A stretch of DNA of 64,000 nucleotides from Mucilaginibacter aquaedulcis (lineage in GTDB: Bacteria > Bacteroidota > Bacteroidia > Sphingobacteriales > Sphingobacteriaceae): contig NZ_JAUFPR010000002.1 in NCBI RefSeq assembly GCF_030409325.1, positions 62,001 to 126,000 on the forward strand, in the 5' to 3' direction. Numbering within the stretch: position 1 is the first letter of the stretch; each line of letters opens with the position of its first letter. Of this stretch, positions 25,395 to 61,663 are shown piece after piece. The notes beneath the pieces are model-generated. The model searched no databases. It was not told the DNA's origin and saw only the letters and a program-made list of their open reading frames with translations. Made by a program: the position numbers and the translations under genes.

Positions 25395-25560
25395 GAGACC
25401 CACCCGGCCTTCGCCTGAAGGGGAGGCCTTTGAATGACATATAGTTTATGCAAGACTTACGAAGTTTTTAAAACTTCGTAAGTCTCATCTTCATTAACAG
25501 AAAAGACTTTAAAAAACGCTTTTTCAAGTCTTCCCCTTTCAGGGGGATTTAGAGGGGGCT
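25395..25560. repeat. Composite intergenic repeat with perfect 33-bp palindrome
   Basis: The outer segments CCTGAAGGGGAGGCCTTTGA and CAAGTCTTCCCCTTTCAGG are inverted relatives. Inside, at 25453-25485, AGACTTACGAAGTTTT and AAAACTTCGTAAGTCT are perfect 16-base arms around one T. The palindrome probably also acts as a transcription stop between the convergent DUF1080 and GntR genes. Confidence 0.7.
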
Positions 25561-43268: not shown

Positions 43269-43440
43269 AATCTATAAATTTATATGCTAACACGTTTTAA
43301 GGTGTTTGTGTTTGCCTGATATTAGGTTATAAAAAATGGTATGCAATTGTTTTTGCATGAGGTTCACAAAAATATTCTCAAACTGGTTTGTACTCAAACT
43401 TTTAACATCAGCTTGTTGTTTAGTTAATAATTCCAGAACA

Positions 43441-44373
43441 ATGAACCGATTACTTAATGCAAAATATTTCCAGGTAGCCCAAAGGATATGGGGCACCAGG
43501 CTACTGTTTGTTAATATATACATGATTGCCAATCGTCCCGGCTCGGCAAAGGGTTGGGTTTTGATAGATACAGGATTAAAAGGCTCGTCGGCCAAAATAA
43601 TAGCTATGGCCGAGGCTTTGTTTGGCCCGGGTACCAAGCCATCGGCAATTATACTTACCCATGCTCACGGCGACCATGCCGGCGGTTTACCCGAACTTTT
43701 AAAACACTGGAACGTGCCTGTATATGCTCACCGGCTTGAAATACCTTACTTAACTGGCCTGTCATCATATCCACCTCCCGATCCGTTTGTGGGCGGCGGA
43801 TTAATGAGTCTAGCCTCTGTATTTTTTCCGGTAAAACCTTTAAATATCCGGCACAGGATCAGAGCCATAGATGTAGAAGAGGGGATACCCGAATTGCCCG
43901 ATTGGAAAGTAATTGAAACCCCGGGACATTCGCCCGGTCATATATCTTTATACTTACCGGTAAGTTCCGTTTTGCTGGCAGGCGATGCCGTGGCCACTAC
44001 AAAAGCTGAGTCGGCCATATCGGTATTTAATTATACGGGCAAATTATGCGGCCCGCCAAAATATTTTACCATGAACTGGGAGGCTGCCGCTGCATCGGTA
44101 CGTAAAATCGCAGCTGTTAATCCGCGCACCATCGCTCCGGGTCATGGACTTGTTATGCGTGGCCGCGAACTACAGGATGCCTTACAGGAACTCGCGGAAA
44201 ATTTTGAAGAAGTAGCCATGCCATCAAGCGGAAGATATCTGAACAATCCGGCCATGACCAACGAAACAGGTGTTACCTATGTACCTCCCTTTGTAAGCAG
44301 TGCAGAATTTAAAGTCGCGGTTTCGTTTGCTGCAGCCTTTGCCGGGTTTATGATCATGCGGCAGTTGAGGTGA
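43441..44373 (+). CDS. MBL-fold metallohydrolase
   Basis: A 310-residue metallo-beta-lactamase-fold hydrolase. The start at MNRLLNAKYF is chosen; 35 further in-frame codons upstream look unlike protein. The zinc motif HAHGDHAGG, the second site ETPGHSPGHISLY, the aspartate LLAGDAV and the last His in IAPGHGL are all present. A C-terminal hydrophobic run (FKVAVSFAAAFAGFMIM) could peripherally anchor it. The substrate is unknown. Confidence 0.86.
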   Translation: MNRLLNAKYFQVAQRIWGTRLLFVNIYMIANRPGSAKGWVLIDTGLKGSSAKIIAMAEALFGPGTKPSAIILTHAHGDHAGGLPELLKHWNVPVYAHRLEIPYLTGLSSYPPPDPFVGGGLMSLASVFFPVKPLNIRHRIRAIDVEEGIPELPDWKVIETPGHSPGHISLYLPVSSVLLAGDAVATTKAESAISVFNYTGKLCGPPKYFTMNWEAAAASVRKIAAVNPRTIAPGHGLVMRGRELQDALQELAENFEEVAMPSSGRYLNNPAMTNETGVTYVPPFVSSAEFKVAVSFAAAFAGFMIMRQLR

Positions 44374-44396: not shown

Positions 44397-44571
44397 TTTG
44401 TCATTGCGAGCGAAGCGTGGCAATCGCGAATTTGTCTGAACCAGGATTACACTGATTTATTGGATTAAAGGATTTTATTTTAGTTTTTTTTATAATCGTG
44501 GTAATCCCTTAATCCCCAAAATCGTGGTTCAGACAAATTCGCGATTGCCACGCTTCGCTCGCAATGACAAA
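44397..44571. repeat. 175-bp inverted repeat with perfect 47-bp arms
   Basis: The left arm (44397-44443) begins TTTGTCATTGCGAGCGAAG, and the right arm (44525-44571) is its exact reverse complement, ending CGCTCGCAATGACAAA. The 81-base centre contains further inverted GGATTAA/TTAATCC words. No coding content; it looks like a mobile or dispersed palindromic element. Confidence 0.9.
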
Positions 44572-44605: not shown

Positions 44606-44697
44606 TGTCTGAACCAGGATTAAACAGATTTGTTGGATTAAATGATTTTGCTATGATTTTGGATAATCATGGTCATCCCTTTAATACCAAAAATCGC
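44606..44697. repeat. Partial second copy of the inner repeat
   Basis: Begins TGTCTGAACCAGGATTA, which is also in the 175-bp element just upstream (44434 onward), and continues with similar GGATTAAATGATTTT text. The outer arms are missing. It is in direct orientation to the first copy and lies just before the DUF3820 gene. Confidence 0.7.
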
Positions 44698-44761
44698 TGT
44701 CCATTCGATTCATCAAATTATCTGCAACGGGAATAAATTCTATATTTACACAGTGAAAAAC

Positions 44762-52145: not shown

Positions 52146-52170
52146 AGGGAGGTGGTAGATGGTTAGACAC

Positions 52171-52283
52171 AAGAAATGAGAATCAAGACATAAGAGCCAA
52201 GAATCAAGAAATTGCTATTCGATCGTTACCAAAGTTTTTCCTGACCACTCGTTTTAATTCTTATTTCTTGATTCTCATTTCTT
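52171..52283. repeat. AATCAAGA inverted repeat, copy 1
   Basis: Arms of 25 bp with one mismatch: AAGAAATGAGAATCAAGA at 52171 onward and its complement TCTTGATTCTCATTTCTT ending at 52283. Further CAAGA words flank it up to 52316. It sits between the MscS gene and aroQ. Confidence 0.7.
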
Positions 52284-52315
52284 CACTCTTGATTATTATT
52301 TCTTGCTCTTATCTC

Positions 52316-53676: not shown

Positions 53677-54094
53677 TGATTCGGAAGGATCGTTGATTTT
53701 GCAGAACAAATATTCCCTCTTTCCGCCGTAGGCGAAGAGAGGGTGACCGAGCGTAGCGATGGTCGGGTGAGTCTGATCATTGTATTGCGTAAATTACTTG
53801 CTTCGCTCGCCTGCTCTCTCTTCAACTTCGCTGGAAAGAGGACAGAGTAAGAATTTATCATGCCTAACATCTTGATGTATAGCTCACTGATAACTCCTTC
53901 GCTGCATTCAATATCGACAAAATGGGGAAACCATGTTGCACCGTGTAATTCATCGCCAGTTCGTGAACTACAATTCCCCTTTTTGTGGTGCATTTTACTC
54001 ACGATTTAATGGTTAACAGGGTTTTAAACATCATAATGACTGTAAAAAACTTGTGGCATTAGCATTGGTATAATTAATTAAAGATTAATATACT
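53677..54094. other. 418-bp gap with palindromic repeat and AT-rich leader
   Basis: The first part is the CCCTCTTTCCGCC repeat (53715-53773) followed by related CT-rich inverted words up to about 53845. The last 90 bp are AT-rich leader for the next gene. An apparent antisense frame spans the repeat and is not credible. Confidence 0.45.
53715..53773. repeat. CCCTCTTTCCGCC repeat, copy 1
   Basis: CCCTCTTTCCGCC, then GGCGAAGAGAGGG, and a closing GGTGAGTC. The same order is at 61605-61663, and an inverted version at 61507-61565. Confidence 0.75.
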
Positions 54095-61506: not shown

Positions 61507-61663
61507 GACTCACCCCGACATCGCTACGCTTGTCGACCCTCTCTATGGCTTCGCCGTAAAGAGGGTTGGGGAATTTTCTTTTCCCCTTTATCAATTTTGC
61601 AATCCCCTCTTTCCGCCGCAGGCGAAGAGAGGGCGGTCCGGCGAAGCGTAGACCGGGTGAGTC
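61507..61663. repeat. 157-bp inverted CCCTCTTTCCGCC element
   Basis: The left half, GACTCACCCCGACATCGC onward (61507-61565), faces the right half (61605-61663), which ends GACCGGGTGAGTC. The arms are about 59 bp and imperfect. The right half matches the copy at 53715-53773 closely. Confidence 0.75.

Follow-up and report, generated by a model that had tools for sequence, protein, structure and literature searches.

The locus at 44397–44571 raises the question of how a non-coding element of 175 bp in Mucilaginibacter aquaedulcis came to carry two long inverted arms that match perfectly over 47 bases. The window, meaning the whole stretch of DNA that was analysed, consisted of 64,000 nucleotides. 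Alignment revealed inverted arms of 52 nt at 44397–44448 and 44520–44571 with 98% complementarity, of which the outer 47 nt formed a perfect inverted match; the perfect arms described by an earlier reading of the sequence alone could be confirmed by alignment and by shuffles. When the 175-bp element was folded as DNA, 0 of 200 dinucleotide shuffles folded as well (z -17.8), and 100 shuffles of the window yielded nothing that matched the 26-nt arm core. A listing of close inverted repeats in the window (seed 12, length at least 24, within 400 bp) gave three, of which the element was the longest and the most nearly perfect. A further inverted repeat with arms of approximately 43 nt and 79% complementarity was present at 52170–52305. 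No ORF of at least 80 aa was found within 44397–44571, in agreement with the non-coding nature assigned to the element earlier. The element starts 23 bp past the end of a forward-strand ORF (43336–44373), which we take to be metallo-beta-lactamase-fold-like. The two ORFs on its 3' side, both on the forward strand like the upstream ORF, are presumably a small conserved ORF and a methionine-sulfoxide-reductase-like ORF.

Analysis of the arms together with a search of the genome revealed that the element is a composite, A[B], of two dispersed non-coding palindromic repeats, with B at the centre of A. The composite occupies the whole of 44397–44571 and is arranged as an A-type arm, B, and an inverse A-type arm. 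The 5' A arm (44399–44427, forward strand) is of type L and carries a TGTC tag (TGTCATTGCGAGCGAAGCGTGGCAATCGC), and the 3' A arm (44541–44569, reverse strand), also of type L with a TGTC tag, is its inverse complement. The inner B (44433–44535, forward strand; TGTCTGAACCAGGATT...AATCGTGGTTCAGACA) is an imperfect palindrome with unlike halves. The putatively homogenised tract of 47 nt covers 44397–44443 on the forward strand and is the inverse complement of 44525–44571. A second B copy without A arms was located downstream on the forward strand (44606–44699). Its first part (44606–44660) is 84% identical to 44433–44487, and the whole-element search aligned 44606–44696 with the inner part of the element at 81%. 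The second inner copy reported by the sequence-only reading is therefore real, but its truncation is not a clean cut, since the 3' end is degraded.

The whole-element search of the genome returned at least 106 match rows, in which both orientations of one place are counted; as the best 40 of 133 first-look candidates were scored, copy numbers are lower bounds. Family A (TGTCATTGCGAG...) could be described as an inverted REP-doublet-like heterodimer of approximately 88 bp with two arm types, L (TGTCATTGCGAGCGnAGCGTGGCAATCGC) and R (TGTCATTGCGAGGAGGAACGACGAAGCAATCGC or a shorter form), separated by a spacer of approximately 20 nt. The genome contained 49 L arms at up to three mismatches (reversed control, 0) and 85 exact A arms of either type (control, 0). 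Family B (TGTCTGAACCA...) is approximately 100 bp long, begins with TGTC and runs from TGTCTGAACCAGGATT to AATCGTGGTTCAGACA; its ends were found 108 times at up to one mismatch (control, 0). Each family was also present without the other, and in the A[B] composites B replaces the A spacer. Inspection by eye of the arm layout at 24 B places revealed R on the 5' side of B or L on its 3' side in 11, and the degraded copies L018 and L023 had the same layout as these clear places. The arms were reversed around B at L008 and L020, no clear A arm could be seen at eight places, and the window copy had L on both sides of B. Composite and solo B copies, compared among 22 copies recovered by a pattern, did not separate (p 0.29) and thus give no support to joint spread of A and B as a unit. 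The flanks of 47 A dimers had 74% A+T content. A simple ORF caller, with 17 of the 47 dimers left out, placed the remaining 30 between convergent ORFs (13), between tandem ORFs (10), between divergent ORFs (2) or inside an ORF (5). Direct repeats of at least 5 bases were present beside 11 of the 47 dimers versus 9.6 in shuffles, and those of at least 4 bases beside 29 versus 20.8, with 1% of shuffles having as many. Candidate target-site duplications beside A, as expected of a MITE, were therefore not in excess at the longer cut-off and modestly so at the shorter one.

The window copy was then distinguished from the rest of family A by its arms. Among the 47 A dimers, which were fetched via L-arm or whole-element matches so that R/R dimers could be missed, 46 were L/R (40 without B and six with B) and the window copy was the only L/L. 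Counted from the GTC tip, the perfect run between the arms was 44 bases long in the window dimer and at most 12 in the other 46. The list of exact arms, which was not selected by arm type and in which types were assigned by hand, gave 30 pairs distributed as 28 L/R, one hybrid/R, one L/L (the window copy) and no R/R. On the 5' side of B, most composites have type R, the side on which the window copy has type L. The best full-length match to the element elsewhere in the genome reached 86% (best 40 of 133 candidates scored), and the nearest B to the window B reached 92% among 21 compared, versus 100% between the window arms. These values suggest that the copy diverged first and that its arms were made to match later. 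Judged from the sequences, arm homogenisation, and not recent spread, is the most likely cause of the arm identity. Of the explanations raised by the sequence-only reading, recent spread is thus disfavoured by the 86% match, while gene conversion gains support from the single L/L dimer among 47 and from a 47-mer confined to the window arms.

Taken together, it is probable that copies of these repeats spread, that this copy diverged in place, and that a template switch within the hairpin then made its arms alike. A putative trans-acting enzyme would have spread the copies, perhaps via hairpin intermediates of single-stranded DNA, and the window copy would have settled and then diverged before the change in its arms. 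A polymerase working on one hairpin arm may then have switched template, by which a type-R arm would have been rewritten as type L over 47 perfect bases. According to the available part of PMC8604942, template switching between inverted repeats has arm homogenisation and spacer inversion among its outcomes, and signs of both could be seen in this genome. The B halves of one copy, L012, were alike in 29 of 30 bases, versus 5 to 16 mismatches in the other 22 copies; L012 had joined the B set by hand for this comparison since it appeared homogenised. The spacers of 39 plain A dimers, oriented against a consensus by eye (L053 and seven B-bearing dimers excluded), were forward in 31, undecided in six and inverted in two, clearly in L077 and weakly in L056. 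A template switch inside the element is suggested by these two observations together with the lack of another exact donor in the assembly, and switching within the hairpin would be the simplest route to homogenised arms.

Ectopic gene conversion or crossover with an inverse-oriented composite, whose donor may have been lost or left unassembled, would produce the same arms and is unlikely. The genome does contain several L arms linked to B ends, which could have served in such an exchange. However, the exact 26-nt L core, found eight times in the genome, extends into the 47-mer in the two window arms only; the assembly held no second exact copy of the 47-mer, and its nearest relatives, L007 and L017, differ inside it.

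Recent transposition of an L/L form, with arms identical through youth, is a more doubtful explanation still. It accords with the identical arms and with a dispersed, patchy family, and like-armed dimers do exist in congeners, where 8 of 17 A dimers were like-armed with the short R arm (20 fetched stretches, by eye). Because like-armed dimers are common in congeners, the L/L dimer could also be inherited. Against recent transposition stand the best full-length match of only 86% elsewhere (40 of 133 candidates scored) and the absence of a second L/L among the 47 dimers or the 30 exact-arm pairs. An assembly artefact, in which an ordinary R/L composite was assembled as L/L, is very improbable; the window dimer is the only L/L found and the genome is a draft of eight contigs with an estimated contamination of 3.62, but the element sits in a contig of 2.58 Mb and its B core retains the normal unlike halves.

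Comparison of the locus with its counterparts in related genomes revealed that the element is absent from the same position in the congeners that retain both neighbouring genes. Around the downstream ORF, 30 loci were fetched, 29 of them from congeners, and 9 of the 29 keep the upstream ORF adjacent. The gap between the two genes was 51–92 bp in eight of these nine, versus 391 bp in the window. The ninth congener (L121), which is the closest relative among those sharing this gene order, had a gap of 477 bp containing repeats like a third palindromic repeat, C, instead of A[B]. Neither A nor B was seen by eye between the two genes in any of the nine, some of which are nearly identical to each other. 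Of the 301 genomes searched in the family, 43 had exact A arms (control, 0); within the genus they occurred in 39 of 69 genomes, with at least 10 arms in 15. The B 19-mer matched 36 stretches in the genome collection, 11 of them from Mucilaginibacter, and the 20-mer across the composite junction matched none in a collection of genome contigs, which possibly lacks the genome analysed here and those closest to it. The search for the arm thus bore out the REP/BIME-like character suggested earlier, with multicopy inverted doublets that are dispersed in the genome, patchy in the genus and missing from the relatives' gene gap. A single copy conserved in position, which would have pointed to a structural RNA or terminator, is not what was found, since the element is multicopy and none of the nine congeners carries A or B there.

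Constraint on pairing, also considered by the sequence-only reading, received no family-wide support, as the arms of other copies did not covary clearly beyond chance. The A arms showed 89 mismatches versus 95.2 expected (p 0.07; 45 dimers, with the window dimer and L053 excluded), and covariation in the B arms was likewise not clear beyond chance (p 0.20–0.29; 23 copies). In the absence of clear covariation in either family, homogenisation appears to be rare and not a rule. A local structural RNA or terminator under selection for pairing is the least probable of the explanations considered: the hairpin is very stable and lies 23 bp past an ORF end, 13 of 30 A dimers lie between convergent ORFs, and two terminator-like matches were found in the region versus 0.4 in shuffles, but these matches are 5-pair stems inside the arms with no T run after the long hairpin, the element is absent in all nine congeners keeping both neighbours, and the window had no Rfam match at gathering scores.

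A REP-associated tyrosine transposase (Y1/RAYT) had been proposed as the mobiliser, and this could not be supported by position. The flanks (approximately 1–1.5 kb) of 76 Y1 loci, two from the genome itself, 30 from the family and 44 from the genus, were searched with patterns allowing 1–2 substitutions, and at 0 of the 76 did A or B lie on both sides of the gene; a RAYT as mobiliser was accordingly rejected on positional grounds. Both Y1 genes present in this genome are enclosed by palindromes of their own that differ from A and B. At 25455–25483 the window carries two oppositely oriented copies of ACTTCGTAAGT, a repeat that also borders the genome's Y1 transposase gene at L027. One-sided or remote matches, which were not counted as association, occurred at six loci, five of them matching A or B and one more matching a looser TGTC-type pattern. 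The A head pattern was found at L091 and L107, the B pattern (up to two substitutions) at L118, L290 and L329, and the loose TGTC-type pattern at L107, upstream only, and at L294, as a single TGTC-like repeat outside the gene's own repeats. Across 69 genomes of the genus, the numbers of A arms and Y1 genes were correlated (rho 0.39, p 0.0008), and a Y1 gene was present in 18 of 18 genomes with at least five A arms versus 38 of 51 others (p 0.015), both values being uncorrected for kinship or genome size. Two genomes, G036 and G072, had nine and six Y1 matches, respectively, and no exact A arm. In view of the correlation across the 69 genomes, a Y1 enzyme may act on A in trans.

The nesting of palindromes was not confined to A and B. 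Inspection by eye showed that repeat C (CCCTCTCTTCGCC...) flanks both sides in 9 of the 47 A dimers, with A in the central position; seven of the nine could be recovered by a pattern. The relative orientation was identical in all nine C[A] copies, which spread as a compound unit would explain no less well than insertion on separate occasions. Repeat C also occurred with plain spacers of 26–57 nt (best 40 of 59 candidates scored). In one case, L219, it enclosed a lone A-type arm, and in L220 the C element has a fourth palindrome, D (CACAAGCGGGACGCTTG...), at its centre. By eye, an arrangement like that of L220 lies beside the Y1 gene of L315. In the window, a plain C palindrome (CCCTCTCT...) with a 39-nt spacer was present at 61516–61633, and two more C-like arms in opposite orientation were present at 53724–53833. 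In Chitinophaga, two B-ended palindromes with further matched flanks were found, with arms of 105 and 110 nt (L270, 4255–4555; L273, 911–1187), and the L270 palindrome surrounds a terminator-like core between convergent ORFs. A broader and much more tentative proposal is that TGTC-tagged and other palindromes of families A, B, C and D constitute a nesting system, in which doublets would lodge at the symmetry centres of other palindromes and move via a single-strand enzyme acting in trans and distinct from RAYTs. Template switching would homogenise their arms and invert their spacers, and palindromes could grow in this way, as in the Chitinophaga copies.

This genome offers nesting repeat families with solo and nested forms together and with rare copies whose arms appear to be rewritten. 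Two questions are thereby made testable: what moves the CGTC/TGTC-type repeats described as lacking a dedicated transposase, and how long palindromes in bacterial genomes originate and persist. Literature searches by the A or B sequence returned no repeat-related paper by title, and those on nested REPs in Bacteroidetes returned nothing by title, in both cases among the matches listed.

The closest comparison is with the CGTC-tagged REPs. According to the available part of Di Nocera et al. 2013 (PMC3733652), these occur in five phyla including Bacteroidetes, mostly as inverted doublets with heterodimers frequent in some families, and have a stem of 8–9 bp, a loop of 4–5 and a short unpaired tail that is mostly CCA; no dedicated transposase gene flanked by CGTC- or TGTC-tagged REPs is described there. 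Similarly, A carries an unpaired TGTC tag, with T before GTC and A after GAC in 47 of 47 dimers, opens its stem with two A-T pairs, the sequence being ATTGC/GCAAT in both L and R, and forms inverted doublets and heterodimers that flank 0 of the 76 Y1 loci (the Y1 family being the one searched). In contrast to the REPs in that description, the continuous stem of A, ATTGC/GCAAT, has approximately five pairs (checked in one L arm and by reading in R arms) and a longer, interrupted interior. The tail of A is CGC, with C and then GC in 46 of 52 L-like arms, the 85 exact arms carrying the C-GC tail by design of the search pattern, and in some A doublets the spacer is an entire second palindromic repeat. 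Since stem, loop and tail differ, A was not placed in the described CGTC families. The same part of PMC3733652 reports REP doublets inside other palindromes in A. variabilis and H. neapolitanus, where no REP-free copies of the host palindromes were found. Here too a doublet of repeats sits in the middle of a further palindrome, but B, A and C each also occur alone.

Compared with REPINs and their RAYTs, as far as these are described in the available part of Bertels and Rainey 2011 (PMC3116915), A is alike in consisting of inverted doublets with a spacer (47 dimers) that are hairpin-forming, dispersed and non-autonomous, but it is bilateral at 0 of the 76 Y1 loci, and the Y1 genes inspected carry other palindromes. 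The homogenised arms and inverted spacers resemble the quasipalindrome template switching of PMC8604942, which in the available part of that source concerns yeast coding DNA, whereas here the process is proposed for a dispersed bacterial repeat in one genome. Against these systems, the element at 44397–44571 is a TGTC-tagged REP-like doublet with a second dispersed palindrome inside it and with arms that have most likely been homogenised locally.
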